Source: a virus. From it: a stretch of 31,365 nucleotides of DNA. A model generated the notes under the pieces. That model saw nothing but the letters and a program-made list of their open reading frames with translations. It had not been told where the DNA came from and ran no database searches. The translations under genes were made by a program, and so were the position numbers. The DNA lies in IMG/VR virus record IMGVR_UViG_3300032265_001511, positions 1 through 31,365 of that record. One strand, written 5' to 3'. Shown here one piece after another: positions 2,460 through 30,553 of this stretch (positions are counted from its first letter, which is position 1; each line of letters opens with the position of its first letter).

Positions 2460-3549
2460 AAAGCAGCGACTTGACGCGCTGTCTGTCGAGGCAGATATCT
2501 ACATCATAAACCTTGAGAATGTGGCATGGCTATGTGGCCTCTCAGATAAGTTAGTGTTCACTAACTTAGTGATTGACGAGTCCAGTCGGTTTAAGGACCC
2601 CAGCACCAAGCGCTTTAAGGCGCTTAAAAAGCATTTAAAGGGCTTCTCACGGCGTTTAATACTAACCGGCACACCTACCCCTCAGGGACTACCCGATCTC
2701 TGGTCACAGGTGGGCATATTGGACTTAGGAGAGCGCTTGGAGACAAGCCTAACCAAGTTTAGGGATAAGTACCTAACCCCCAACCAAATGAATCGCCACA
2801 CACACGTTATATACAGCTGGAAACTACAACCCAATGCAGATCAGATTATTAAAAACAAAATTGAAGACATATGCTTTAGCCTTAAAGCTGAGGATTATTT
2901 ACAGCTACCTAGCTGTACGTCGCTTTATCACAAAATTGATTTAGACCCACAAGTAAAGAACAAATACAATGAGCTTAGAAAAGATATGGTCGTTGAAATC
3001 GGTAAGGGGCAGATCACAGCTCCAACAGCAGCGACACTGGCGAACAAGTTACTGCAATTCACCTCGGGCGCAGTCTATGGCCAAGATGGAGAGCCGCAGG
3101 AAATACACCGTACTAAATTGGAATACCTTGAGTCGATCATGGAAGAATCTTCAAGCCCGACACTGGTTTTCTACCATTTCAAGCACAGCCTCAACAGGAT
3201 ACGCCTCCAGTTCCCGCAGAGTGTGGTGCTGGACGATGACAACATTGCAGCGTGGAATCGTGGCGAGATTCGTATGCTGCTTGCCCATCCGCAGAGTGGT
3301 GGTATCGGGATTAATTTACAGTGCAACGCTGGAGAGACAGCCCAAACGGTTTGGTTCGATTTACCATGGAGCTCAGAGAACTACATCCAAGCGAATGCTC
3401 GGGTCTACCGCCAAGGGCAAGAAGTGCCGGTTATATTACACCACCTAGTAGTGGCAAACACAATCGACGAGCAAGTAGTCAAGGTACTAGAAGGAAAAAT
3501 AAATTTGCAGGAGGCCTTGTTAAATGCGCTAGATTTTGCATTAATATAG
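2206..3549 (+). CDS. SNF2-family (SF2) DNA helicase/translocase
   Basis: This 447-residue ATPase has the expected motif order. Walker A is GLGKT (residues 31-35), then APKRVAQTVW (Ia), VIDESSRF (II, DESS at 124-127) and LTGTPTPQ (III, about 153). In the second RecA domain SGGIGINLQ (V) and NARVYRQGQ (VI, arginine finger region) follow. Length and compactness match phage SNF2-like helicases that replace DnaB-type enzymes in many phages. It likely translocates on dsDNA during replication, recombination or fork remodelling with the VRR-NUC nuclease encoded upstream. ATG 2206 is well placed, with the ATPase motif starting 30 residues later. Its 5' 254 bases are overlapped by the HNH-like frame. 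Confidence 0.92.
   Translation: MLNRSQLHQYQQDLIQKAKTIPNLGLFLPPGLGKTATTLTIIAEQFKGKTLIIAPKRVAQTVWDTEISKWQHLSNLTCSKVLGSEKQRLDALSVEADIYIINLENVAWLCGLSDKLVFTNLVIDESSRFKDPSTKRFKALKKHLKGFSRRLILTGTPTPQGLPDLWSQVGILDLGERLETSLTKFRDKYLTPNQMNRHTHVIYSWKLQPNADQIIKNKIEDICFSLKAEDYLQLPSCTSLYHKIDLDPQVKNKYNELRKDMVVEIGKGQITAPTAATLANKLLQFTSGAVYGQDGEPQEIHRTKLEYLESIMEESSSPTLVFYHFKHSLNRIRLQFPQSVVLDDDNIAAWNRGEIRMLLAHPQSGGIGINLQCNAGETAQTVWFDLPWSSENYIQANARVYRQGQEVPVILHHLVVANTIDEQVVKVLEGKINLQEALLNALDFALI
3537..3549 (+). promoter_or_regulatory. partial copy of the phage TGCATTAAT motif
   Basis: TGCATTAATATAG is identical over 13 bases to the start of the intergenic motif found at 24291-24309. Here it forms the last codons and stop of the helicase gene (F-A-L-I-stop), three bases before the ATG of the sigma-like gene. 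A 13-base match is unlikely by chance in a window of this size, but the coding context and very short leader make its use as a promoter uncertain. It could instead be an operator. Confidence 0.4.
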
Positions 3550-3551
3550 CC

Positions 3552-3863
3552 ATGAGAACAAAAACCAAACATAAGATAAACGCTGTAGCCCCCCGACTTA
3601 GTGACGAAGATATTGACCCGATTGAGCAAGATGATTCTGAAAATGTAACCATACCGTCTAACGACGGGTGGCTGCCGTGGGATCCTGAAGACATATCTGA
3701 TATTCGTAGACTAGTTACCGAGAGCATGCCAGAAAAACAGCGTTTTATTATGGAGTCGTTTTTAGATGGGCTAAGTTATGCAGATATTTATGTTACTGAA
3801 AAGTATTGGCGGTACCATTTTGTTAAAGGAATTGAATTTCTTAAAAAGGAGTTAAAGGTATGA
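3552..3863 (+). CDS. putative sigma-70 region 4-like HTH protein (103 aa)
   Basis: The C-terminal half (PEKQRFIMESFLDGLSYADI, then TEKYWRYHFVKGIEFLKKEL) follows the pattern of sigma-70 region 4. Such regions have a P-x-x-Q-R-x-x-x-x helix, a G-x-S-Y-x-x-I turn, and a recognition helix leading into a lysine-rich tail. There is no region 2, so it cannot be a complete sigma factor. It may instead redirect host RNA polymerase or bind DNA alone. The N-terminal half is acidic and probably disordered (DDSENVTIPSNDGWLPWDPED). I chose ATG 3552 over upstream in-frame starts because those lie deep inside the helicase gene. The stop overlaps the next start (ATGA 3860). A copy of the phage motif sits directly upstream. 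Confidence 0.55.
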   Translation: MRTKTKHKINAVAPRLSDEDIDPIEQDDSENVTIPSNDGWLPWDPEDISDIRRLVTESMPEKQRFIMESFLDGLSYADIYVTEKYWRYHFVKGIEFLKKELKV

Positions 3864-11284: not shown

Positions 11285-13195
11285 ATGATATATTCAATAG
11301 ACTTTGAAACACGTAGCTTTGCCGACTTAGCAAAAGTCGGGCTTGACAAGTACGCCAACTGTCTATCCACCGAAGTATTATGTATTGCCTTTGGTGCGTA
11401 CCCAGACGTGATACGTCTAGTAGACAAATCCATTTTAAATAAAAACTTTCCATTGCTAGACCACGTCCGCAATGGCGGCAAGATACAGGCATGGAACGCC
11501 TTGTTTGAGTACGCAATCTGGAACTGTGTCTGCGTCCCTAAGTACGGCTGGCCAGAGCTAAAGCTAGAGCAGTGCATTGACACCATGGCCATAGCAGCGG
11601 CTAACAACATCCCCCAGGCCCTTGGTGACGCCGCCTTGTTTATGGATGCGAGCCAGCAAAAAGACACCCGTGGCAGGTACCTAATCCAGAAGCTATGCAA
11701 GCCAGTTAAAGGATCCTTTAATAACGACCCAAAATTGATGGCTGAGATGTTTGAATACTGTAAGCAGGACGTACGCACAGAAATGGCAATTGGAGCCAAT
11801 TTAAGGCCTCTTGTAGCCTCCGAACAGGATGTATGGACCCTTACCCAACGAATCAATTTAAGAGGCGTACCGGTTGATCCTGTAGAGCTGCGCAACGCCG
11901 TCACGGCAGTAGAGGCCACCCAGGCCGCCATTGACGCAGAGTGTGTATCCATAACCGGCTGTAAGCCATCCGAGCGGGCCAAGCTGCTTAAATGGTTAAA
12001 CAATAACAACGCCGAGCTGGACGATTTGACCGCAGACACCGTCTCAAAAATGCTGCAGTGCAGCATTCCTAAGAAAATACGCCGTGTGCTAGAGCTACGC
12101 CAAGATGGCACACAGACCTCAACGGCAAAGTTTGCCAAAATGCAGGAGATACAACGAAATGGCAGAATCAGGAACACGCTCATCTATCACGGGGCTTCTA
12201 CTGGCCGTTGGGCATCTAGGGGTGGTCTCAACCTTCAAAATTTGGCACGTCCTTCACTTACAGATAATGAAGTTGAAGTGGCGCTACCAAAGGTATTTAC
12301 AGGTGCGACTGGTTCAATGGACGAACTGTCCTCACTCGTCCGCTCTGCTATTAAGGCTCCCGAGCAACAAACCTTTGTTGATGTGGATTTTAGCTCAATT
12401 GAAAACAGAGTTGGCGTCTACTTGGCTGGCCAGAAAAATAAGATCGAGCTATTCCGCAGTGGTCTTGACGAGTATAAGACGTTTGCATCTGAGTCGCTAT
12501 ACAATATACCGTACGAGGAAGTCACTAAGGAACAGAGGCAGATAGCCAAGTCAGCCGTATTGGGCGCGATGTTTGGCCAAGGCGCCAAGGGGTTGGTGAA
12601 GTATGCTGGGGGGATGGGTGTCGAGATGGATGAGGCTCAGGCTGAGCTAGCGGTTAGTAACTACCGATCTTCGTACTCGATGGTAAGAGATTTGTGGACG
12701 CTGTTTGACTTTGCTGCTAAAAGCGCAATAAAAGATCCCGGCACGCCTCAATCTGCCGGTAATAAGATTATGATGAAGGTAGTTAAGGGTGTGCTCTGGA
12801 TGCAGCTACCCAGTAAGCGTCTCATCTGCTGGCAGAGGCCAAAGTTCGAGCTGGTCGAAACATCGTGGGGTGACAAGAGGATGGGTGTCACTGTCCACAG
12901 CCAAAACACTTTCACTCGGCAGTGGAGCAGGAACGCCCTGATCGGCAGCAGTATGTTTCAGTCCGCCGTTCAGGCGACTGCTAGAGATTTTCTTGCCGTG
13001 GCTATGCTTAATCTTGAGAAGTCCGGTTACAACGTGATCAACAGCGTGCATGATGAAGTTTTACTCCTTGTGGAAGAACAAAACGGGGAGTCCGCACTGG
13101 CCGACGTAGTCAAGATTATGACTACACCACCAGAGTGGGCGCCCGATTTTCCTCTTGCTGCGGAGGGCTGGCACGGTAAACGCTACAGGAAGTGA
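11285..13195 (+). CDS. family A DNA polymerase with 3'-5' exonuclease domain
   Basis: This is the replicative DNA polymerase (636 residues). The exonuclease motifs are DFETRS (D6, E8), AWNALFEYA (N71, E75) and Y158-CKQD162. Polymerase motifs are GRW (307-309), motif A VDVDFSSIE (D368), motif B R418-QIAK422-SAVLGAMFG and motif C NSVHDEVLL. In the O helix the residue equivalent to E. coli Phe762 is Leu426 and that equivalent to Tyr766 is Phe430. Leu762-type polymerases are frequent in aquatic viruses and have been linked to slower, more accurate synthesis and possibly temperate lifestyles. There is no 5'-3' exonuclease domain, as in most phages. TTAGGAGCGCATA precedes the ATG, and its stop abuts the convergent virion gene. 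Confidence 0.95.
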   Translation: MIYSIDFETRSFADLAKVGLDKYANCLSTEVLCIAFGAYPDVIRLVDKSILNKNFPLLDHVRNGGKIQAWNALFEYAIWNCVCVPKYGWPELKLEQCIDTMAIAAANNIPQALGDAALFMDASQQKDTRGRYLIQKLCKPVKGSFNNDPKLMAEMFEYCKQDVRTEMAIGANLRPLVASEQDVWTLTQRINLRGVPVDPVELRNAVTAVEATQAAIDAECVSITGCKPSERAKLLKWLNNNNAELDDLTADTVSKMLQCSIPKKIRRVLELRQDGTQTSTAKFAKMQEIQRNGRIRNTLIYHGASTGRWASRGGLNLQNLARPSLTDNEVEVALPKVFTGATGSMDELSSLVRSAIKAPEQQTFVDVDFSSIENRVGVYLAGQKNKIELFRSGLDEYKTFASESLYNIPYEEVTKEQRQIAKSAVLGAMFGQGAKGLVKYAGGMGVEMDEAQAELAVSNYRSSYSMVRDLWTLFDFAAKSAIKDPGTPQSAGNKIMMKVVKGVLWMQLPSKRLICWQRPKFELVETSWGDKRMGVTVHSQNTFTRQWSRNALIGSSMFQSAVQATARDFLAVAMLNLEKSGYNVINSVHDEVLLLVEEQNGESALADVVKIMTTPPEWAPDFPLAAEGWHGKRYRK

Positions 13196-13207
13196 TTACT
13201 TCTTTTT
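13189..13207 (+). terminator. possible terminator hairpin spanning the convergent stop codons
   Basis: GAAGT (13189-13193) and ACTTC (13198-13202) form a five-base-pair stem around GATT, followed by five T on the + strand. The hairpin overlaps the polymerase TGA and the stop of the - strand gene. The stem is weak, but this is the only stop signal I see between two converging operons. Confidence 0.4.
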
Positions 13208-16200
13208 AACCTTGCCGCCTTTTTTATATTGCTTGCCGGGGAAGTCACTTAAATTTAATCTTGGGTCATCCCAGCTCGTTGTCTCTAAGCCACGTTTGGG
13301 GGCAATGATCAATGGGCCAGATTGTAATTTTTCTTCAGCAGACCAAACGGGGTTACCAGTAGACTTGTCATAGAACTGAGAGTGCCTACGTGGATCCATA
13401 CCAATTTGAGTGTAGTTAGGATCTTTCATCATCTCGGCCATCATGCGACGAACTTCTTCGTCTGACGTGCCAACATTAGTACCCTTAATCATTGCAAATG
13501 GAGACTTTGCAGATCCCATTTCCGCGCCCATGGGGGTGAGTGCCTGCTGCTTAGTTCCGAGGCCAACACGAACCGCTTGATTAGGTTTAGAACTAAAATC
13601 TACGTTAGATAAGTGGCCAGTCCTGCCGTAACTAATTGCTTTATTGGCTGCGTCATGTGTCGTATCAACATAAACACCATTTTGTGTATACGCTGGAATG
13701 TCTAACCGGTTACCAACTTGCATGCCCACAGGAACTGGAGCCAATGCCTTAGATTGTTTATTTGACGTCAAAGCATTTCTGATTTGTTCGTCAGTATAGT
13801 TAGGCGGCAAATCAGTCCACTGTCTAATTGGCAAATGCTGATTTAAAATATTAATGCGATCTGCTTGACTGATGTTGCCCTTTAAATATTCTTCTAGCGC
13901 TTGAGCCACTCTTGCATCTTGACCATGTGGGTGCTTAATTAATGCTTTACCAAGCAATGCAGCAAGCCCACCAACTTGAAAATGAGGAAGGCTATCTTCA
14001 TTTTGAGTAGCTGTTCCAACACCGGCTGCTCCAATACCGTACATTGGTTTATTACCATGAATAAATCCTTTTAAAACATTTTCTTGAGGTTCTCCAGTGA
14101 TTTTACTAGTCCGGGCAAGCATTTCATTAATCTCTTGCATCATAGGCTTACCAGGATAATCTTTAGCACCGGCCCATGCAACATCTTGAAAGTTAGAAGG
14201 GTTTACGCCGGCTTTAGCAGCCTCATCGGCCAATGCTTTCTGATAAATACCGTAGGCATTTGGTGGAGGAGACATCATTTTTGGATCCCACAATTGACTC
14301 ATTTGTTCATCAATAGTAGATACATCACGATGACCTAAAAAGTTAGCAGAAAAATTATGGCGTTTCGGATTAGTTACAGGAATTTCACCCATTTCAGCTA
14401 ATTTCTTAGCTTGATCCATGTTACCACTTACAAAACGACCACCAATTGGAAATGGTAAGTCTGCTGCTTTAGTAGGAATTTCTTTACCTAAACTTTTTTG
14501 GTAGTTTGTAAATGCTGCCATCATTAAATTTGAGTTAGGATCCGCACCACCAGTTGTGGCCGCCATAGCATCAGCAAAACGATTTTTAAATTGTTTTCTT
14601 CCTTCTTCAACACCCAATTCTTTAATAAATGCTTCTTCTAATTGGCCCATTGCATACCAATCTTTTGCGGCTGGTCGGTCTTTACCTTTTTCAAATGCGC
14701 CGCGTAAACGTGCAAGACTTTCTGGATTATTGGCAAGCTCAGTATATTTTGCAATTGTTTCTGCTTTTTTAGGAACAATATCTGTTTGTGTGTAACCAGC
14801 TGTTGGATAATTTGTAGGATCGGCATAGTATCTTTGATTTACATCAAAGTGAGGCTCATAGTTTCCTTTATCAATTTCTTTTTGTGCTGCTTTACGTGCT
14901 TTTTGAACTTCTAACGCTTCTGGACTATTTGCTTTTTGTAAAAATTCTTTTCCAGTTTTTGGGTCTTTAGCTAACACCGGTGGTATTACATCAGGGTACA
15001 CCTGAGACATCTTGTATCTGTCGTATTTTAATTTTTCTAATGGGTCAATTGGGTTTGATTTTGAAAATGTTTCACCAAAGCTCATACCGGGTGACATTTT
15101 AGCGTTTGGTACAGCATGCGCGACACCGCCAATTTTAGTTAAATAGTCTTCTGCCATACTAGCGGCTTTAGGGCCCAATGCTTTAGCTAAAGGCTTAGCT
15201 GCCATACCAGCAAATGGCAAAGCCATACCAGCGATACCGTAAGGCTCACCTTTTTCGTAGCCTTCTAAGTAACTAGCGTCATTTGGGTTAAGAACGCTAC
15301 TACGATTTGGATCAGAAGGGGCACCTAGTGCTGCGTCTAAAAAACCAGTACCGGAGCCTACTTTTCTATTGCGATTAATTTGTGGGTAACCAACAAAGGC
15401 TGAACCTTCATTGGCTTCAGGCTTTGGGGGCTGACCACCTTCTGCCATTTCTACATGGCCGCCGCTACAAAGATGCATGAATTCTTCTTTAGTTAACCCC
15501 GCCGGTAAAGTATGAATAGTGTACTTAGGCTTGCTTTCTGGTTTAGGTGCAACATTGCCACCTTTTTTATAGTCCAAATGGTGCTGCATAATTTCTCGGG
15601 CCATTGTAGGCATGTCAGGGCCTTTAGCAATACTTCCACCCCCAGCGTAATCACGACCATACAATTTGTCAATACCATAGTTAATAGCTGGTGCAGCTAA
15701 CCCTATTCCAGTTCCAATTAAACGAGTAGCTGGGTGCGGAACTGCTGATGCGGCAGATCCTAGCGCACCAATACCGCTTACAATACCTCGACCTACATCA
15801 CCATGTTCAAAACGAGTTAACGCATCCGCAGTTTGTGCGCCCGCTCCAGCTAATGACGCAATTGGCATGACAGTGTTTAATACTTTACCGGGCAATCCAC
15901 CTGGAGTAATGTATTTTCCATACTGTCCAAGTGCTGCTTTTGCTTTAGCTAACGTAGACGCGTCTTTAGTAGCAGTAGCTGCTTTGGCGGCTTGCGCCGC
16001 TTCTTCAGCTGCGGCCACGCCTTCAGGCATTAAGATAGTGCTATTTCCTGGGGACACGTAACCTGGAGTTTTTAATGCTGCTTGAGCAGCTTTGTTTTTT
16101 AATACTTCGCCAACGTTATGTTCTGCATTTTTTACAGCACCAACACCAACACCGTGTGGCGTATTATAACCAGCTGGGGCCGCCTCAACAGTAACAGATG

Positions 16201-16465
16201 GAGTTTGTTTTGGTATACGATTTAATACTTCAGATAGTACGTATTTGCTACCTACAACAGGCGCAACATATTTTGCACCAGCAGTTGCACCAATCGCAGC
16301 ACCAGCTATACGATTATCACCAATCTCTTCCTTAACCGGTGGCTTTTCTTGAGGAACGGATGCAATTTGTTTTAAGGCCGTGTCAGATAACTGGGAGTAA
16401 TCATTATTGGCTATATGCTGTAAATCTGCATCAGATAATTTGGAGTAATCTAATTCGCCGGCCAT
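13196..16465 (-). CDS. giant internal virion protein, polyvalent-protein-like (1089 aa)
   Basis: This is the last gene of the virion operon. The N-terminus has two copies of a YSxLSDxxLxxIA repeat (residues 6-34), a type seen in phage ejection proteins. An Ala/Gly-rich hydrophobic region follows (about 50-270). GG motifs occur (YAGGGSIAKG, YKKGGNVAPK, FQVGGLAA and the C-terminal YKKGGKVKKK). Around residues 600-660 the segment DWYAMGQLEEAFIKELG to NLMMAAFTNYQ resembles a domain found in phage/plasmid 'polyvalent' proteins. MDPRRHSQFYDKSTG near 1020 also resembles one of their associated domains. I infer a protein carried in the capsid and injected with DNA; no enzymatic active site is clear. 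Its start overlaps the previous stop (TAATG). Confidence 0.7.
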   Translation of the reverse strand: MAGELDYSKLSDADLQHIANNDYSQLSDTALKQIASVPQEKPPVKEEIGDNRIAGAAIGATAGAKYVAPVVGSKYVLSEVLNRIPKQTPSVTVEAAPAGYNTPHGVGVGAVKNAEHNVGEVLKNKAAQAALKTPGYVSPGNSTILMPEGVAAAEEAAQAAKAATATKDASTLAKAKAALGQYGKYITPGGLPGKVLNTVMPIASLAGAGAQTADALTRFEHGDVGRGIVSGIGALGSAASAVPHPATRLIGTGIGLAAPAINYGIDKLYGRDYAGGGSIAKGPDMPTMAREIMQHHLDYKKGGNVAPKPESKPKYTIHTLPAGLTKEEFMHLCSGGHVEMAEGGQPPKPEANEGSAFVGYPQINRNRKVGSGTGFLDAALGAPSDPNRSSVLNPNDASYLEGYEKGEPYGIAGMALPFAGMAAKPLAKALGPKAASMAEDYLTKIGGVAHAVPNAKMSPGMSFGETFSKSNPIDPLEKLKYDRYKMSQVYPDVIPPVLAKDPKTGKEFLQKANSPEALEVQKARKAAQKEIDKGNYEPHFDVNQRYYADPTNYPTAGYTQTDIVPKKAETIAKYTELANNPESLARLRGAFEKGKDRPAAKDWYAMGQLEEAFIKELGVEEGRKQFKNRFADAMAATTGGADPNSNLMMAAFTNYQKSLGKEIPTKAADLPFPIGGRFVSGNMDQAKKLAEMGEIPVTNPKRHNFSANFLGHRDVSTIDEQMSQLWDPKMMSPPPNAYGIYQKALADEAAKAGVNPSNFQDVAWAGAKDYPGKPMMQEINEMLARTSKITGEPQENVLKGFIHGNKPMYGIGAAGVGTATQNEDSLPHFQVGGLAALLGKALIKHPHGQDARVAQALEEYLKGNISQADRINILNQHLPIRQWTDLPPNYTDEQIRNALTSNKQSKALAPVPVGMQVGNRLDIPAYTQNGVYVDTTHDAANKAISYGRTGHLSNVDFSSKPNQAVRVGLGTKQQALTPMGAEMGSAKSPFAMIKGTNVGTSDEEVRRMMAEMMKDPNYTQIGMDPRRHSQFYDKSTGNPVWSAEEKLQSGPLIIAPKRGLETTSWDDPRLNLSDFPGKQYKKGGKVKKK

Positions 16466-18465
16466 TACGGTGTTCCTTTTTTATTTAATCGTCTATTTAG
16501 CTCAGCCTGTGCTTTACTTTGAGGAGATTCACCACCAGTTCCTTCAACTGTAACAAGTCCTTTATATGTATTAATAAAATGATTTTTAGCTTTTTCTCTG
16601 AAGTTAACATATTCAGGAGTTGCTTCAAATTCATCAAAACTGGCTAATTTACCGCCATGTGTTTTAGCCCAATCTTCAAACATATTTTTCTTAGTAACTT
16701 GAAACTCACCAGCGTCACGAATTAAACGAGCATTTTTAGCGTTTATTTCTGGAGGTAATTCAGCTCCAATACCTTTAGCGCCCATTGCCATTTTTTCAAG
16801 GCCAATACCCATACGAGCGCCTTTAAATACATCGGCAGCAAAATCAATACCCAATTTTTGTGCCGAGTTTTGAACCGCACGATAGTCAGCCAATTCTTTA
16901 GGCGAAAATTTATTGGTAATATATTCTTCTTCAAGTTCTGCAGGAGTTTTATTACTAATATGTTTACTTGCTGTAAACAAAGCCGTAGCAACTTTGTTAC
17001 CACCATGTAAATAACCAAGGACATGATTACGTGATGGGTCGGTTGCAATTTTTAATACGCTATCTGCAGCAGGAATAGTATTTAAATCAGCTGTCTCAGC
17101 TAATTTACTCATTTGTGCATAAGACTCACCAGCTTTAGCAGATCTTGTGACACCTTCTTTTTCACTTATAGATAAATTAGCTTTACGAAAATCTTCAGCA
17201 GCTTTTATGTTTTGTTCAACTTGTTTGCTATTAATTGGATTTGCAAAAGGTTTAACAAAATTATTTTGAAGATCAGGAGTAGAAACTGCAGCGGCACTAG
17301 GAGCTGCGGCAGGGAAACCAGCTGGTGCGGCAGGATAGTTATTGCCCGCTTCAAATTTAGTAATTGCTGCTTTTGCTTTTGCTAATGATTCTGGTGTGTT
17401 AGGGATCTGAGCCGTTGGGTCAGCCATGCCTAAAGAATTAGCGATTGCTTTACCATAGTTTTGGGTTGACTCAGGGGAGTTTCCTTTAGCTGTAGACGGT
17501 GCCCAAGTTTCAGCTAATAAAGAAGGACTCATAAAGTTTCCAACTTGTGGTCCAAAACGTTCTTTAACAACTGGGCTTTGACCAGATAACTTTAATCCTA
17601 AATCACTAGTTAACGCGGCGTCACCCGCTTGCGGTGTCGGAAAAGTTTTAATTTGGCCTGTCGTCGTATCAACTAAATTACCTGGGTTGTTTTGTCTTGT
17701 ACTTTTTGGAAGAGCGTCAAGTCCAGAAGTACGAGCACCAGCACCTTGAGGTAATAGTTTGCTGTATCGCTGTGGTAATTTTCCATTTTCAGCATATTCC
17801 TTAGCCTCAAAAGGATTCATATCTAAATCTTCGCTAAGTTCAGCTACAAAAACTGGCTTAGTTGTAAATGACGCAGGATTATATTGTGCTTTATTTGCTT
17901 CGGTAATATCTGTTTTATAATAATTATCTATAATAGCTTGCTTGGCAGCAATGTCTCTTGGGTTAACTGCGTTTAATGCAGTAATAACATTAGCCGGTAA
18001 CCCGCCGGAACCAGCACCACCTGCGCCGCCAACGCCGCCCCTACCCATCAAAGCGTTAATACGTTTGTTTTCAGCTTCTAACTGAAGTTGTGCGTTTTGA
18101 AATGCGGCTTGTTGTTGACGAATATTAAACAAATTTGAACGGTCAGTGTTAGCCGCTTCTTCACGCAAAGCAAATGCAGGCGCTTTGTTATACATAGTCC
18201 AAGCGTTTACGTCTTTTAAGCCTTCATTAAGTTTGCGCCAAGGGTTCTGAATTTCATCAGCCAACTTTTGCATATTTTGCAAGACATTAGCCTGACTTTT
18301 TTCGTCCATTAGCATGCCCTCTTGGGCTTTTACTGCATTAAGTCCGCCTTTTGTTTTAGCTGCCGCTAATTGCACAGGCAAACCTGGGATTATTCCGTTG
18401 TTGGTTAACCTTGCATTTTCATCTGGTAACGCTGTCTCTTCTGACGGTGTGTTTGTAATTGCCAT
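16465..18465 (-). CDS. internal virion protein with muramidase/transglycosylase-like domain (666 aa)
   Basis: The first 160 or so residues are helical and Gln/Ala-rich, ending in a glycine linker (RGGVGGAGGAGSGG). Residues about 255-375 resemble the virion-associated peptidoglycan-hydrolase domains that begin with R-x-NNPGNL. They continue with FPTPQAGDAALTSDL, then a WAP block (LLAETWAPSTAKGNS) and QNYGKAIANSLGM. Such domains digest the cell wall locally during DNA ejection. The C-terminal half is helical, consistent with an ejection protein. It starts ten bases after the preceding gene with an AAGAGAT ribosome binding site, and its stop overlaps the 1089-residue gene's start (TAATG). The catalytic residue cannot be assigned by eye. 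Confidence 0.68.
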   Translation of the reverse strand: MAITNTPSEETALPDENARLTNNGIIPGLPVQLAAAKTKGGLNAVKAQEGMLMDEKSQANVLQNMQKLADEIQNPWRKLNEGLKDVNAWTMYNKAPAFALREEAANTDRSNLFNIRQQQAAFQNAQLQLEAENKRINALMGRGGVGGAGGAGSGGLPANVITALNAVNPRDIAAKQAIIDNYYKTDITEANKAQYNPASFTTKPVFVAELSEDLDMNPFEAKEYAENGKLPQRYSKLLPQGAGARTSGLDALPKSTRQNNPGNLVDTTTGQIKTFPTPQAGDAALTSDLGLKLSGQSPVVKERFGPQVGNFMSPSLLAETWAPSTAKGNSPESTQNYGKAIANSLGMADPTAQIPNTPESLAKAKAAITKFEAGNNYPAAPAGFPAAAPSAAAVSTPDLQNNFVKPFANPINSKQVEQNIKAAEDFRKANLSISEKEGVTRSAKAGESYAQMSKLAETADLNTIPAADSVLKIATDPSRNHVLGYLHGGNKVATALFTASKHISNKTPAELEEEYITNKFSPKELADYRAVQNSAQKLGIDFAADVFKGARMGIGLEKMAMGAKGIGAELPPEINAKNARLIRDAGEFQVTKKNMFEDWAKTHGGKLASFDEFEATPEYVNFREKAKNHFINTYKGLVTVEGTGGESPQSKAQAELNRRLNKKGTP

Positions 18466-18475
18466 AATTTATCTC

Positions 18476-19372
18476 TTAGTTAGGACCGTAAAGATTTTGG
18501 TCAGCAGCTGGATTAACAGGGGTTGTTGATGGCTCATACGGCGAAACAGGGTTGGGCATGTCGCTGTTATTTGAAGTGCCTAAATTACTTAACCAACGAG
18601 ATAAATTACCTCCTATGTTAGTTAACGCACCACCAAGACCTAAAGAATTTAATAAAGTATTGCCCGCACTACTTACCGCGCCGATTTGACTTAACGGAGA
18701 CATTTGGTTTTGCTGCGCTACACTACCAGGAACACTAATGTCGTTAATTAAGTTTGCGTAGCTTCCAAGGTTCTGAAATGGTGCGTTCATCTGAGTATTA
18801 CCAGCTGTCAATTCGGTGCCTAGTTGTTGGTTGGCTACGTTACCCAAAGCGGCTCCTGCTTGTACGCCAGTCGTTTGATTTTGCAATGCGGACTGCAGTT
18901 GCTGAGCGGATAGGTTAGCAAATGCGTCTGCCTTAGCCTTGTCAATCGCGGTCTCCCCACGTAAACTACCAAAGTTTCCAGAGCCAATGTTAGCGCCTTG
19001 TACAGGTGCCGTATAATTTGGCATCAACTGGTTAAGCTGTTGGTTTTGTGCCTGAAACAAACCACCCATTGCCGTGTTGGTATTTGGGGTTACTTGGCCG
19101 TCAGCCCCAGTAATCCAAGGATTAGCCGCTCCTGCGCCAATTTGTCCTAAAAACCCTTGAGATTGATTAAACGCATTATTGGGGTTTTGCAAAGTGTTTA
19201 CAGCCTGCTGCCCCACAGTGTTTTGAAAAGCTGGTGCTGAACCAAGTGCTTGACCTGCCCCCTGCACAATACCCTGCTGCGCGGCGTCGTACCATGACGG
19301 TAGTGTGGTCTCTTTTACATACGTGTCGGTTAAAAAATTGTTTAAACCGGTTGATCCTGTTGTTCCAGCCAT
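18476..19372 (-). CDS. internal virion/ejection-type protein (298 aa)
   Basis: This protein is rich in Gln, Asn, Ala and Gly, with long helical stretches (LSAQQLQSALQNQTTGVQAG; GNVANQQLGTELTAGNTQMN). The pattern LRGETAIDKAKADAFANLS resembles podovirus internal proteins encoded between a tape-measure-like protein and the large ejection proteins. The C-terminus is proline-rich. Its ATG overlaps the previous stop (TAATG at 19372), so it belongs to the same translation-coupled set. The exact family was not recognised. Confidence 0.62.
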   Translation of the reverse strand: MAGTTGSTGLNNFLTDTYVKETTLPSWYDAAQQGIVQGAGQALGSAPAFQNTVGQQAVNTLQNPNNAFNQSQGFLGQIGAGAANPWITGADGQVTPNTNTAMGGLFQAQNQQLNQLMPNYTAPVQGANIGSGNFGSLRGETAIDKAKADAFANLSAQQLQSALQNQTTGVQAGAALGNVANQQLGTELTAGNTQMNAPFQNLGSYANLINDISVPGSVAQQNQMSPLSQIGAVSSAGNTLLNSLGLGGALTNIGGNLSRWLSNLGTSNNSDMPNPVSPYEPSTTPVNPAADQNLYGPN

Positions 19373-22300
19373 TATGCTCTCACTTTACGTTTTGCTTCTA
19401 ATAAATAACCTAGCGCACCCTTACTATCTGGCGGCAATCCATTTTTATTTGCACGATTTTTATGTGATCTAATTGTCTTTAAAAATTCATCAAGTATAGA
19501 TGCACCACTGTCATTACTTCCGTTACCCAAAGATGATACCACATCGGCTGGTATTACAAATTCGCCGTTTGCTAACATCGCCGGGATACTATCACTTGTA
19601 CCGTCTCCGTCACCTTGAACGTAACGATTTTCCATTGCGTTTAAACCACCCTCACTAAAAAATTGTGGGTTATGGTTTTCAACTTCACCGCCAGCGCTAA
19701 ACACTGGTGAGTTGGCCATTACATTTAAACCAACAAATGGCTTATGAAACGAAAATGGTTTTCCTTTAATTTTAACTTCAGTGGCGCCCGCTTCAAACGC
19801 AGGATTTGTGTCACTACCACCGGCGGACATGTGTATGGCACCACCCTGAGCCGCAGCTAAAATTTGCTTTAACACAGTGTCGGGGTTGTACACTGGAGGG
19901 GTGTACGTATACTGTTGTAAGTTATATTTATCAGGCAATGCAGACGCCTGGTCTTTACCTTTAACAAAATTAGCAACTGGGGAGTATGCAGCATCACCTG
20001 GGCCAATACCAATATTAGAACCCGCAGTTGCGCCTGCAGTATTTCCGCCAGTGGCTAGCCGCATTAAACCACCTTCTTTAGCGGCTTTTAATTGGTCTTC
20101 TATATTAAATGGTTTCATAGGTATCACATTGCTCGGTTGGTTTGAGTTAATAATATTCATTTGATTTTCTAAAGGCATTGCATGCTTTCTGCCTTTAATT
20201 ATATCTGCCTGTAAATCTGGTGAATTACTTCCAATAAATTTTTTCTTTTTAAGAACTTGTTTTTTTAATGGTACTGGAGTCTTTGGTGTTTTTGGGGTGC
20301 TTGGTGTTTTAGGACCAACGCTAGGGTTCAGATTTGGGTTTAAATTAATTTCTAAATTAGGGTTCGGATTAGGGTTCGGATTAACGTTAGGGTTCGGATT
20401 AGGGTTCGGATTAACGTTAGGGTTCGGATTAGGGTTCGGATTAGGGTTCGGATTAGGGTTCGGATTAGGGTTCGGATTAGGGTTCGGATTAGGGTTCGGA
20501 TTAGGGTTCGGATTAGGGTTCGGATTAACTAACGGATTTGGATTAAGGTTAGCATCAGGATTAACATTAGGATTAAAATCAGGATTAACATTAGGATTAA
20601 AATCAGGATTAACATTAGGATTAATTGCTGTTTGTTTTTTTAGGGTTTGGTTACGCGCCGCTTGTTCCGCTAGAGCTTGATTACGCAAATCTTCTGCCGT
20701 GTAATCTACATTTTTACCTTGGTTTAGTTCAGATTCAATTCCAGAGGGGGCGTCATACCTTGGCCCATAATTATTTGGAATAGTTCCATTTACCAATCCA
20801 TCTATATAATTTTGTTGCTTTTCAGATGCGTCATTGCCCCTGCTGCCAGATACCATTGAGCTGCCTGGTGTGTTTTTATAGTCACTTACCCATTGGGCAT
20901 CAGCTGGGTCAAGTCTTCCTTCAGCTACCGCTTTCTGCACCAACGGGTGCATGTTACTTGTATCAATTGTGCCTGCACCAGCTACTGAAATTGGCTGCGC
21001 ATTATCAAATGAAGCAGGGGCTTGTTGTACGGTGACTGCCCCAGGGTACGCGCTGATAGTAGCGCCAGTGGCTCCTGCAACGTGAGCGCCAATTAACGCC
21101 GATTCAGTTGCTTCATTCTGAGCTTTTTCCCAGTCAATTTTTCCAGTTGAGGCGTACTGAGTAGCCGCAGACTGTATTATAGTTTCGACGTACTCAGTGG
21201 CGTGCTCTTTAATTCCAACACCAACTACAGTTTTTACAAAACCAGCCTCAACCAAATTACCAGCAAGTCCTTTAAGAAGCGTCGAGTCTACTATACCAGT
21301 TGTTAACGCTGTTGCAGCGGCTGAAATTGCTGAAGGCAAAATTGCCCCTTGACGAGCAGCCTCGTCTCCTGCTCCTTGCGCTCTAAGGTTCTTATATACT
21401 TCACCGTAAGTGTCGCCGTAAGACTCTCCAGATTGTAAAGCTATATCAACACCCAAAGCCGGTATATAACCTGCTAATTTAAAAGCCGCGGCTCCAGTTG
21501 CTAATTGAAAACCTTCTTGTATGCCTTCTCTTTCAAGCCAAGATAAAAACCCCCTTGGATTTTCGTAAGCAGCTTTAATACTTTCAACTACTTTATTACC
21601 GACACCGTCAGCAGCTTTAATTCTGTCGCTAATATTTTTTTCTTGTTGTTTAACTTCATCGGGCATTAAACTTCTAGCGTCTTTAATAATCTTATCAGCT
21701 TCAGCTGTAAACGCATTGTCAGTACCAATTAAACCGCCAGACGCAATCACGTTTGAGTAAGATTTTCCTAACTCGGCTATTCCCTGGCTTCCAGATGATA
21801 CCGTTGCGCGTATTTCATCGCCAACTCTTTTTTGAACATCACTAACGGCTTGTACACCAGCACTATTTTGGTTAATGTTAGCTGCGGTTCCAGAAATTAC
21901 GTTACCTTGTTGATCGTAAACACGCGTATCTGTCTGGTCATTTATGGTTTTTTCTGGACTAGTTGTTTGAGTTGGCAGCAGCGCATTATTGTTATCCCAA
22001 TCTGATACTGGTTTCGGCGTTAACGCTAAATTGGTATTAAAATCTTTACCGTTCCATTCAAACGTCTTAACTCCGGCAGTTCTGGCTTCTTTAAATGCAT
22101 CATCAAATTTGTCTGCCGTAGAAACAAATGGTTTATTTTTAGTTTCTTGACTAACTGGCAAACCACTATTTTCTGGTTTACCCACACCAGCGGCAAGTTC
22201 TGACGAACTAAATGGTGTTCCGTTACCATAAAATCCACCAGGTTGACTTTCAGCGTCACCGTTTTGCGGAGTGTAATTAGAAGTCTGTACTGTATTATCA

Positions 22301-24264
22301 AGACCACGTTGTAACAAATTATCAACACCACCGCTAGTAAATCCAATATTTTCTGTGCCAAACGGTGTGGTTGCGTTTGTTTGATTTTGACTGTTAATAC
22401 TTGTTGAAGCAGCGTTTCCAAAAATGTTTGGAATGTTAGTAAGAATTGCATTTTGAATATTACGGCCGTTTAATGCCGCAGTTGTGCCAATTGAAGCAAT
22501 ACTACTTACTGCGTTAACGGCAGCTAATGACGCTTCAGGATTAATGGCGCTTACTACGTTACCAGCGTATGCTCCAATTGATGACGATGCTAAACTAATT
22601 CCTAATACTTTAATAAAATTTTCACTAGTAACAGCACCCGAAGCTGTTGCGGCAATTGTAGATGCCGTTGTATTAACAATAATACCAGCTACTTGTGATG
22701 GTGTTAAACCTACAGCTGATGCAATGTCTGTAATTACTTGTGAGCCAACTAAACCGGTTGCTGTTGATATTTCTGAGCCAGCCCCACCAACGCCACCACC
22801 AATGGCGCCCATAATGGCGCCTTTTTCAATATTGCCTCCCATGGCGGCGGCAGATAACGCACCCATACCAGCACCCATAACAGCGCCACCTAAAGTTGCG
22901 GCACCTACAGCGCCTGCACCAAGTACAGCCTCTCCAATAGCTAAAGCAGCTCCACCAGTCAAAGCCCCCGCCGCGGCCACAGCAATAAGTGCAAGGCCCG
23001 GTGCGACATCCTTTTGAAAGTTAAACCCACTACCTCCAGCGGCAGCGTTATTAGCTATTCGTTGTTGGTTTAAAACGTTAGCTTCACTAGTTGCAGTATT
23101 AACAATTTTATTAATATCATCAACTGAAACACCGGCTTTGTACGCATCGGGTGCCATTGCTTTAATTTGTTCTATGACAGGGGCGGCTTTGTCTGCGGTA
23201 TTTTGTCCTATCTGCCAGCCAACTTGCCTGCCCAAGAAATCTAGTTCTGCTTTGTAGTATGCTTGCGGGGCTACAGCCGCAAGAGAGTCAAGTGCCTTTA
23301 AATCAGTATCATAATTGGCATTTGTAGTGTAATTAGCAAATACTTGATTTTTTAATCCTTGGGCAACGGTATCATAGTACGCGTTAGGATCTGTCGCTTT
23401 TAAATCAAATAGCGATTGTTTATCCGCCGCATCCATAGATAATTTGGAAATATAAGGATCACTAGCAGCCTGCCCAGATAATAAAAGTTTAGCGTCTGCG
23501 CTTTGGCTGTCGTACACGTTACCTGTTTTTTGGTCAAGGTACTGGTACGTATTAATTCTGTTTCCATCACCATCGTACGTCTGTGATATAACCATGGGCG
23601 CCCATTGACTCGGGTCACTCGGAGTTGAGTCTTGATGCTTTGACTGGTACTCATCACTAGCCATAATACCAGCTGTTATTTGGTCGGGTGTTTGACCAGC
23701 GAAACTAGCCTTACCAGATGAGTCAGCGTTTCGGCCTAAGTACTGCTGGTATAAGGCGTCTATTGGATCAGAAGATGCTGTGCTTGGCGCTCCGCCGTGC
23801 GTGCTAGCGTACTCTGCGCTACCAGTAAGCCCGGCAATAACGTCCGCTGCGCTTTTTCCGGTCCAAGTAGAAGAGCCTGAAGGGTCCACGCCACGGCCTA
23901 AGTACTGCTGGTACATTTGCTCTAATGTTGTTGGGTCAACTCCACCACCCTGTGGCACATTCTGAACTGGTGTTGGGTCACTACCGCCACCATGGGTACT
24001 AGCATATTCACCACTACCCAAAATGCCTTGAAGCACTGTGTTGTAGTCTTGGCCTGTCCAAGTAGAAGAACCAGATGTGTCAACACCACGGCCTAAATAC
24101 TGTTGGTACATCTGCTCTAGCGCATTTTGATCAACGCTGGGGGCAGGTTGAATTGGTGCGGCATTATCAAATTGAGCCGGTGCAGATTCAACCGTTACAG
24201 AGCTATCTGCCGGCGCCGGGTCGTCTACCCAATTTGCACTGTCTCCGCTGCCTACCCAACCCAT
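19372..24264 (-). CDS. very large internal virion protein (1630 aa) with DUF4214-like repeats and an Asn-Pro tract
   Basis: This is the largest protein of the window. Three N-terminal repeats resembling DUF4214 (residues about 49-91, 114-156, 168-210) share M/LYQQYLGR-x-x-D-x-SG and end in S-x-EY. Residues about 415-575 are a Gly/Ala-rich hydrophobic region suggestive of membrane insertion or ejection. Residues about 1211-1302 are Asn-Pro repeats (NPDFNPNV then NPNP). GG motifs follow (MRLATGGN, HMSAGGSD, FSAGGEVE, FFSEGGLNAM). The C-terminal GDGTSDSIPAMLANGEFVIP block (about 1550) recurs in many phage tail/internal proteins. It probably acts as a tape-measure- or ejection-type protein. AAGAAGG precedes the ATG, and a promoter-like motif lies 27 bases upstream. 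Confidence 0.72.
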   Translation of the reverse strand: MGWVGSGDSANWVDDPAPADSSVTVESAPAQFDNAAPIQPAPSVDQNALEQMYQQYLGRGVDTSGSSTWTGQDYNTVLQGILGSGEYASTHGGGSDPTPVQNVPQGGGVDPTTLEQMYQQYLGRGVDPSGSSTWTGKSAADVIAGLTGSAEYASTHGGAPSTASSDPIDALYQQYLGRNADSSGKASFAGQTPDQITAGIMASDEYQSKHQDSTPSDPSQWAPMVISQTYDGDGNRINTYQYLDQKTGNVYDSQSADAKLLLSGQAASDPYISKLSMDAADKQSLFDLKATDPNAYYDTVAQGLKNQVFANYTTNANYDTDLKALDSLAAVAPQAYYKAELDFLGRQVGWQIGQNTADKAAPVIEQIKAMAPDAYKAGVSVDDINKIVNTATSEANVLNQQRIANNAAAGGSGFNFQKDVAPGLALIAVAAAGALTGGAALAIGEAVLGAGAVGAATLGGAVMGAGMGALSAAAMGGNIEKGAIMGAIGGGVGGAGSEISTATGLVGSQVITDIASAVGLTPSQVAGIIVNTTASTIAATASGAVTSENFIKVLGISLASSSIGAYAGNVVSAINPEASLAAVNAVSSIASIGTTAALNGRNIQNAILTNIPNIFGNAASTSINSQNQTNATTPFGTENIGFTSGGVDNLLQRGLDNTVQTSNYTPQNGDAESQPGGFYGNGTPFSSSELAAGVGKPENSGLPVSQETKNKPFVSTADKFDDAFKEARTAGVKTFEWNGKDFNTNLALTPKPVSDWDNNNALLPTQTTSPEKTINDQTDTRVYDQQGNVISGTAANINQNSAGVQAVSDVQKRVGDEIRATVSSGSQGIAELGKSYSNVIASGGLIGTDNAFTAEADKIIKDARSLMPDEVKQQEKNISDRIKAADGVGNKVVESIKAAYENPRGFLSWLEREGIQEGFQLATGAAAFKLAGYIPALGVDIALQSGESYGDTYGEVYKNLRAQGAGDEAARQGAILPSAISAAATALTTGIVDSTLLKGLAGNLVEAGFVKTVVGVGIKEHATEYVETIIQSAATQYASTGKIDWEKAQNEATESALIGAHVAGATGATISAYPGAVTVQQAPASFDNAQPISVAGAGTIDTSNMHPLVQKAVAEGRLDPADAQWVSDYKNTPGSSMVSGSRGNDASEKQQNYIDGLVNGTIPNNYGPRYDAPSGIESELNQGKNVDYTAEDLRNQALAEQAARNQTLKKQTAINPNVNPDFNPNVNPDFNPNVNPDANLNPNPLVNPNPNPNPNPNPNPNPNPNPNPNPNPNPNPNPNPNPNVNPNPNPNPNVNPNPNPNPNLEINLNPNLNPSVGPKTPSTPKTPKTPVPLKKQVLKKKKFIGSNSPDLQADIIKGRKHAMPLENQMNIINSNQPSNVIPMKPFNIEDQLKAAKEGGLMRLATGGNTAGATAGSNIGIGPGDAAYSPVANFVKGKDQASALPDKYNLQQYTYTPPVYNPDTVLKQILAAAQGGAIHMSAGGSDTNPAFEAGATEVKIKGKPFSFHKPFVGLNVMANSPVFSAGGEVENHNPQFFSEGGLNAMENRYVQGDGDGTSDSIPAMLANGEFVIPADVVSSLGNGSNDSGASILDEFLKTIRSHKNRANKNGLPPDSKGALGYLLEAKRKVRA
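20357..20524. repeat. 12-base tandem repeat TTAGGGTTCGGA (13 perfect units)
   Basis: Thirteen perfect copies of TTAGGGTTCGGA occur in blocks of two, two and nine, separated by two TTAACG inserts at 20381 and 20411. On the - strand each unit codes Asn-Pro-Asn-Pro in the 1630-residue virion protein, and each TTAACG codes Asn-Val... in frame as one extra pair. The 12- and 6-base steps preserve the frame, so copy number can change without breaking the protein. Confidence 0.97.
20557..20624. repeat. 24-base tandem repeat, 2.8 copies
   Basis: The unit AGGATTAACATTAGGATTAA followed by AATC is repeated perfectly at 20557 and 20581, with a 20-base third copy at 20605. It encodes NPDFNPNV on the - strand and lies just N-terminal of the Asn-Pro tract, from which it is separated by a degenerate stretch. 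Confidence 0.95.
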
Positions 24265-29851: not shown

Positions 29852-30553
29852 TTAATAGCCCTTTTTAACTTTACCACCACGTTTTTGACCGGTCACGTTA
29901 CTCATGGCATCGACAGCAACTGGGGCTTGGCTTTGTGCTCCAGCCATTGCGCCTTGTTGTGCTGCCATTGGGGCGCCTAAGCCACCTAAAAGGGCGGCTT
30001 GTTGTGCTGCTTTTTTGGCTTTGATTTTATCCATCATTGCCTGTGCTATATTGTTTTGCTGTGGGGTGCCCATTACGTTGTTAGCTAGCGCAGTCCCAGC
30101 AGAACGGATTGGATCAAGCAGTGCACTGGCGTCAGTTACCGCCGATCCTCCAGGTGCATATTTTTTAACTTTACCGCCGCATTTAAATTTATTTACGGTG
30201 CCTGCAAACGCTGGTTTGATTGCTTTTTCTTTAGCAATGTTGGCCTTGTCGTTAGAAGTTTTTTTGGCTTCGTAAACGTTGGTAACTAAACCACCGGCTT
30301 GGTATTTTTTAACGGTACCACAATCTTTCTTAGCGCGGCCGCCTTTACGTAACTTGGACAAGTCAGTCTTTTCACCAGGGTGCTCTTGTTTATCGTGCAA
30401 GCCAATGGCTTTTTTAACGACGGCTTTATCTTGGGCCATGTCAGCTTTTTCTTCAGTCTTGCGCTCGCGTTTCTCGTAGTTAGCGATTTGCTTTTGTACT
30501 GAGCCACCCTCTTTGAAGTGCTGCATCTTAGGTAATTTAGTAAAGCCTTCCAT
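29852..30553 (-). CDS. lysine-rich GG-motif virion-region protein (233 aa)
   Basis: The protein is Lys/Ala/Gly-rich with at least six copies of a short motif around [43 protein letters not shown] and the C-terminal KRGGKVKK. The same motif occurs in the 1630- and 1089-residue internal proteins. The central region is helical ([20 protein letters not shown]). No catalytic features are visible. It is the first gene behind promoter-like copy D (41 bases away) and has GAGGAATTACC as ribosome binding site. It may be a scaffold-like or internal component, which is inference from composition and position. Confidence 0.62.

Follow-up and report, generated by a model that had tools for sequence, protein, structure and literature searches.

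Polyvalent proteins of phages are large, multidomain proteins that are encoded beside late virion genes and are predicted to be packaged and injected, with relatives that carry ADP-ribosyltransferase (ART), GNAT and lytic transglycosylase domains (Iyer et al. 2017, PMC5512222). We analyzed the virus record IMGVR_UViG_3300032265_001511, 31,365 nt in length and referred to as a whole as the window, in which the last gene of an ejection-type module encodes a protein of 1089 residues. This protein shares the size, the multidomain build, the position beside late virion genes and the ART, GNAT and lytic transglycosylase relatives of the polyvalent proteins. It is unlike them in that it matches no Pfam LPD family, and the word glycosylase is absent from the main text of the paper that described them. 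We conclude that the 1089-aa protein is an ejection-type polyvalent protein, one of whose domains is glycosylase-like and undescribed. Residue numbers refer to this protein, and the coordinates of all features are collected in Table 1.

The polypeptide contains two separately folded, mutually unrelated domains, and the closest described systems differ for each. The middle domain is homologous to solo DUF7178 (PF23802) proteins such as Caviar gp76, SIO1 gp9 and prophiGD54-2 gp151, with which it shares a Lys/Asp pair and a C-terminal Q-x-x-x-W. The solo proteins are about 200 aa long and lie mostly among small non-structural genes, whereas the window domain is larger, carries an insertion and is embedded in a 1089-aa protein of an ejection module. 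The same domain has the fold of the Ogg2 8-oxoguanine DNA glycosylases (3n0u, 3fhf, 3knt and 3fhg) across almost the whole Ogg2 length, although single-profile sequence searches do not detect the relationship. The C-terminal domain is distant sequence kin of the Mycobacteriophage L5 gp82 family (PF25735, phrog_586), and in predicted fold it agrees with a solo protein of Mycobacterium phage SWU2; unlike the window protein, members of this family are small solo proteins. T4 Alt and the N4 virion RNA polymerase, virion-carried enzymes of proven injection, have domains unrelated to those of the window protein, for which injection is only inferred.

AlphaFold modeled the middle domain with high confidence from 32 homologues (pLDDT 90.2, pTM 0.89). 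The best match in the PDB by VIA-align was the Ogg2 structure 3n0u (Z 9.9, root-mean-square deviation (rmsd) 3.6, 177/209 residues), and four Ogg2 glycosylases led the ranking with Z 8.9-9.9 and rmsd 3.5-3.6 over 170-177 of 206-214 residues, followed by OGG1, Qng1, AGOG, MagIII, MutY and EndoIII. Every PDB row with Z ≥4 was an HhH-GPD glycosylase, an uncharacterized AGOG-like entry or the queuosine glycosylase Qng1, while unrelated rows reached Z ≤2.5. Foldseek also placed 3n0u first (probability 0.99, E 0.05).

Profile comparison with DUF7178, which the initial annotation had proposed, bore out homology: HHalign aligned the middle domain with 11 solo phage proteins, all scoring far above the DUF7178 cut-off, over 177 columns (probability 97, E 1.2e-10). 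The Pfam score of the window protein itself on DUF7178 is 13.4-15.8 bits and misses the gathering threshold of 27, so we file the domain as a divergent relative rather than a member of the family; the nearest named relative, from Microcystis phage MJing1, reaches 29.1 bits. In this isolated phage and in Roseobacter phage CRP-212 the domain is encoded among the virion genes. Searches of Pfam, PHROGs and NCBIfam with the window protein returned nothing beyond sub-threshold DUF7178 and phrog_3842 matches. DUF7178 was found in at least 150 phage records, and several of its members, some of the 11 solo proteins included, are labeled ‘glycosylase’ or ‘N-glycosylase/DNA lyase’. When the solo DUF7178 family was compared with Ogg2 by HHalign the score was 35.6, and the best of 60 column shuffles gave 18.6.

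The residues at the putative active site point in the same direction. In the Ogg2 chains the lysine, at chain position 129, lies in GIGYKEASHFLRN of 3fhf and in GIGYQEASHFLRN of 3knt, where it is a glutamine, and an aspartate follows 18 residues further on in AIIDRH; these are the catalytic residues of Ogg2. The chains were located with a consensus peptide, and later comparisons used the actual chain sequences. In the window protein K701 and D719, spaced by 18 as in MjOgg, sit in PKRHNFSANFLGHRDVSTIDEQM. Among 71 unique relatives, counting those with a residue at the site, the lysine is kept in 68/68 and the aspartate in 69/69, and both are present in all 11 aligned solo DUF7178 proteins. Two of the solo proteins contain VCIDRHA, which resembles the VCILDRHI of viral Ogg2 proteins. 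From these alignments K701 and D719 are predicted to form an Ogg2-type catalytic pair.

Several observations weigh against an Ogg2-type assignment. Helical folds may give Z values of this size by chance, a known caveat of VIA-align, and the ‘glycosylase’ labels in phage records are unproven predictions of their annotators. Direct HHalign comparison of the middle domain with Ogg2 was marginal (score 25.8, best null 23.6), and in one HHalign alignment the lysine was one position off. The GxG hairpin of Ogg2 is also lost, the window protein reading NPKRHNFSAN against GIGxKEA in Ogg2, with the lysine kept. Because the direct profile comparison is marginal, the link to Ogg2 rests on the fold match together with the DUF7178 bridge, and because the hairpin GxG is absent we call the domain glycosylase-like and not Ogg2. 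A HMMER search of PDB sequences with the middle-domain profile returned no glycosylase, and an RxLR effector match at E 0.1 in this search was judged to be chance; the Ogg-HhH family PF22175 gave no match to phage MJing1. The initial annotation had allowed for an undescribed activity in this protein, for which an HhH-GPD DNA glycosylase-like domain is now a concrete candidate. A search of the open-access literature, with subscription papers and preprints outside its scope, turned up no paper on a DNA glycosylase that is ejected or carried in a virion and nothing relevant on DUF7178; it seems that no phage has yet been described to inject a base-excision enzyme.

The searches also brought up related genes elsewhere. 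Canonical Ogg2-type 8-oxoguanine glycosylases with the motifs KEASHFLRN and DRH occur in four IMG/VR virus contigs (L137, L139, L140 and L141). In Tunturiibacter phage Tunturi_3 the glycosylase-like domain seemed at first to be fused to a portal protein, but the gene proved to be a mis-annotated solo gene of 198 aa: gp111 (PP885686.1, 74402-74998) is a DUF7178 protein tagged ‘portal protein’ that adjoins a gene annotated as ATP-dependent DNA ligase, and the portal name looks wrong. In Rhodococcus phage Dorin (PQ114736.1) a DUF7178 gene is present with equal scores at 3021-3569 and 135269-135817, near the record ends, probably within a terminal repeat.

The C-terminal domain was also modeled confidently by AlphaFold (pLDDT 86.5, pTM 0.82). 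Two segments, 600-660 and 1018-1058 with DPRRHSQFYD, had looked domain-like in the letters of the sequence; the former lies inside the folded middle domain and the latter inside a folded domain of about 847-1081, so that neither candidate region consists of coiled or disordered structure alone. Neither Foldseek nor VIA-align found a PDB match for the C-terminal domain, which does not imply a new fold. Matching predicted viral structures were parts of large proteins labeled ART-PolyVal-like, PcfJ-like, LT_GEWL, Zeta toxin or tail lysozyme, in addition to solo proteins of Bacillus phage Staley and Streptomyces phage Muntaha. Within the family of this domain, 19 of 42 members match PF25735 (best E 5.2e-7) and 20 of 42 match phrog_586. 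Since members of the family match PF25735 and the window domain does not, missing the gathering threshold of 27 bits, we consider the domain related to PF25735 without filing it as a member. Solo gp82-like genes are present in at least 896 phage records.

The genomic setting of the protein is the one that Iyer et al. (2017, PMC5512222) describe for polyvalent proteins of phages. The gene lies near late virion genes, as the last gene of an ejection-type module that is conserved in relatives, and through its C-terminal domain it shares a domain with recognized polyvalent proteins. In relatives this domain occupies the same polypeptide as ART-PolyVal, SLT transglycosylase, GNAT or DUF6321, and it recurs in viral models labeled ART-PolyVal-like and PcfJ-like, which supports the polyvalent character first proposed for the protein. 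Downstream, the gene abuts the convergent polA, whose family A name was read from the sequence, without a profile match. IMG/VR yielded 51 loci in a first scan, to which two more scans, run with alignments, added others; the gene order was judged on those related phage contigs that reach far enough. Dozens of contigs share the order of a homologue of the 1630-aa protein, a homologue of the 298-aa protein, an open reading frame (ORF) of ~550-700 aa, one to three large cargo ORFs and the convergent polA.

The ORFs in this slot vary among the relatives, encoding either the middle or the C-terminal domain alone, the two domains in consecutive genes, or further domains. By Pfam, ART-PolyVal is present in slot ORFs of seven contigs (L002, L007, L013, L014, L074, L087 and L110), SLT stands at the N-terminus of slot ORFs in L087 and L110, and DUF6321 also occurs. 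That relatives fill the same slot with ART-PolyVal, SLT and DUF6321 supports the reading as polyvalent cargo. L121, a contig of another type, combines GNAT with the C-terminal domain, and in other phages the middle-domain gene adjoins terminase, portal or head genes (L028, L037, L044 and L199).

Among the loci examined, only the window protein joins both domains in one ORF. In relatives they are separate and usually consecutive ORFs, and the second usually opens with an ART-like part (FYHGS...GVTFVT) that Pfam detects in L013 and that stays below the cut-off in L006. A Gly-Gly hinge, FQVGGLAALL... in the window protein, precedes the C-terminal domain in relatives as well. The window protein resembles a fusion, at residues 829-850, between the first ORF and the C-terminal domain of the second; the ART-like part and the downstream cargo would have been lost in the process. 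Against relatives, both domains are under purifying selection, with nonsynonymous divergence (dN) of 0.11-0.23 and synonymous divergence (dS) >2. The two families also meet as solo genes: gp82-like and DUF7178 genes lie on the same strand 0.2-0.9 kb apart in Mycobacterium phages Caviar (44211-45435), Phantastic, BabyRay and DroogsArmy, and 2.8 kb apart in Mycobacterium phage Kumao. We regard this neighborhood as suggestive only, because these phages, except Kumao, may be closely related.

At its 5′ end the gene begins with an ATG that shares the sequence TAATG with the stop codon of the 666-aa gene upstream. This overlap, behind the purine-rich AAAAAAGGA that precedes the start, suggests that translation of the two genes is probably coupled. 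The frame and the N-terminal YSxLSDxxLxxIA repeats of the initial annotation were both recovered, the frame on the minus strand; the repeats number two, YSKLSDADLQHIA at residues 7-19 and YSQLSDTALKQIA at 23-35, and the pattern was matched in 0 of 2000 residue shuffles, so chance is not expected to produce it. This pair is a swappable N-terminal tag. Homologous cargo proteins (the middle-domain ORFs of L001-L051) bear at least five unrelated short N-terminal tags exchanged as modules, namely VNGxxVEVDDSFxxLxxEQQ, LQxAYxALxxAHxAGNxxDAxxLADYI, tandem YDxxAAxxAGHSxxDxLxYLA, FDPDxF repeats and the YSxLSDxxLxxIA of the window, with examples at L001:7374, L003:6303, L015:6663 and L074:3418. The exchangeable tags may be packaging or docking signals. 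The hydrophobic region that had been noted in the protein holds up in part: Ala/Gly-rich stretches are found near residues 53-71 and 195-245, the hydrophobicity is weaker than claimed, and a transmembrane segment is unsupported, as the best 19-residue Kyte-Doolittle mean over the 1089 residues is just 1.34 and reveals no clear membrane helix.

We hold with moderate confidence that the protein is polyvalent cargo with an Ogg2-type glycosylase-like middle domain, likely injected, and with a gp82-like effector in addition. Most likely, the N-terminal repeats and the Ala/Gly-rich part would place the protein in the virion, and it would enter the cell with the DNA at infection, as its position and relatives suggest. 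The middle domain would then most likely excise a damaged or modified base and open an abasic site, an activity to which the fold, the DUF7178 homology and the residues point, and the C-terminal domain would probably be a second early-acting effector. Ejection proteins are normally present in few copies. Because of this low number, and because the DNA enters alongside, our tentative preference for the substrate is oxidized or modified bases of the incoming phage genome, removed before replication. Modified bases of host or rival DNA would be attacked in a somewhat more doubtful alternative, which the ART companions make nearly as plausible. The full proposal, that the virion delivers with the genome an active HhH-GPD DNA glycosylase/apurinic-apyrimidinic (AP) lyase, fused to a gp82-like effector and cleaning incoming DNA or attacking modified DNA, is quite possible, if short of probable; the same exchangeable cargo slot bears ADP-ribosyltransferases in sister phages.

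Other readings of the middle domain give it a different role. A glycosylase fold could be retained in the ejection apparatus just as a structural module that binds DNA or capsid, with no enzymatic function, consistent with the loss of the N-terminal hairpin GxG and with the finding that, on contigs with identified neighbors, the domain is always among virion or ejection genes. We consider this unlikely, since both catalytic residues are invariant in the unique relatives that have those sites and the pair persists in all 11 solo DUF7178 proteins, which are encoded mostly among small non-structural genes. It is improbable that the domain works like the queuosine salvage enzyme Qng1 (DUF2419), as an N-glycosidase for nucleosides, tRNA or some other non-genomic substrate: Qng1 structures match with Z 5.5-5.9 over 185-188 residues, but the Ogg2 enzymes surpass them in Z at lower rmsd, and the Lys/Asp pair is spaced by 18 as in Ogg2.

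For the protein as a whole, a purely structural, gp16-like ejection protein, whose domains just assemble a channel and which delivers no effector, would account for the operon position of a last ejection protein, the N-terminal repeats and the Ala/Gly-rich stretches. This is quite unlikely, as the slot varies in content behind constant upstream genes, with ART and transglycosylase enzymes among its occupants, and as the middle domain also adjoins portal and terminase genes in other phages. The single ORF might also be an assembly artefact that joins two genes separate in relatives, given that the two domains never share an ORF in the related loci examined. Such an artefact is highly improbable: the frame runs uninterrupted across a Gly-Gly hinge that relatives also have before the C-terminal domain, both parts match the same phage group, and the fusion is simply explained if the ART part in between was deleted in frame.

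Further features of the module and the protein were recorded. The 666-aa protein has no match in Pfam, PHROG or NCBIfam, and the ~550-700-aa ORF at its place is recognizably homologous to it in only part of the relatives. Inside the 1630-aa gene a long Asn-Pro run (NPNPNPN...) extends over 20297-20680 on the minus strand. GG motifs (YAGGGS, YKKGGNV, MAEGGQ and KKGGKV) occur in the 1089-aa protein at residues 275, 302, 335, 343, 832 and 1083, mostly outside the domains, and such motifs recur in other virion-type window proteins (19372-24264 and 29852-30553); in relatives GG pairs number 1.42 per 100 aa outside the domains, 0.80 in the middle domain and 0.07 in the C-terminal domain. When bacterial genomes were searched for the host, just two binned contigs came up, from Pseudomonadales and Nitrosomonadales metagenome-assembled genomes, by which no host is fixed.

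Table 1. Features of the ejection-type module and of the 1089-aa protein in window coordinates
Feature	Position	Strand	Basis
Terminal protein of ejection-type module, 1089 aa	13196..16465	-	open frame; IMG/VR homologues; conserved slot
Two YSxLSDxxLxxIA copies, residues 7-19 and 23-35	16361..16447	-	pattern match; relatives bear other short tags there
Middle domain, residues 474-828, DUF7178-related, HhH-GPD DNA glycosylase-like	13982..15046	-	32-relative alignment; AlphaFold; HHalign
Glycosylase-like core, residues about 581-775, matching full-length Ogg2	14141..14725	-	VIA-align; Foldseek
K701, predicted catalytic lysine (MjOgg K129)	14363..14365	-	invariance; site K->Q in PDB 3knt
D719, predicted catalytic aspartate (MjOgg D147)	14309..14311	-	invariance; HHalign to Ogg2 Asp; spacing 18
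Gly-Gly hinge, residues 829-850, fusion point of two genes separate in relatives	13916..13981	-	alignment with relatives
C-terminal domain, residues 829-1089 (folded about 847-1081), distant L5 gp82 / phrog_586 relative	13199..13981	-	AlphaFold; family profile matches
DPRRHSQFYD, residues 1024-1033	13367..13396	-	in conserved core of C-terminal family
666-aa protein, upstream, ejection-type module	16465..18465	-	conserved neighbor in relatives
298-aa protein, ejection-type module	18476..19372	-	conserved neighbor in relatives
1630-aa protein, three N-terminal DUF4214 repeats	19372..24264	-	Pfam E 2.2e-11; conserved neighbor
Family A DNA polymerase gene (polA), convergent, closing the cargo slot	11285..13195	+	conserved slot boundary in relatives

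With these results DUF7178 gains a structure-based functional hypothesis with named catalytic residues, and DUF7178 and L5 gp82, two unexplained families, are linked by a natural gene fusion and by neighborhood. The conserved slot offers a defined site at which to search the genomes of these phages systematically for injected effectors, and base excision would join the activities that phages may inject.

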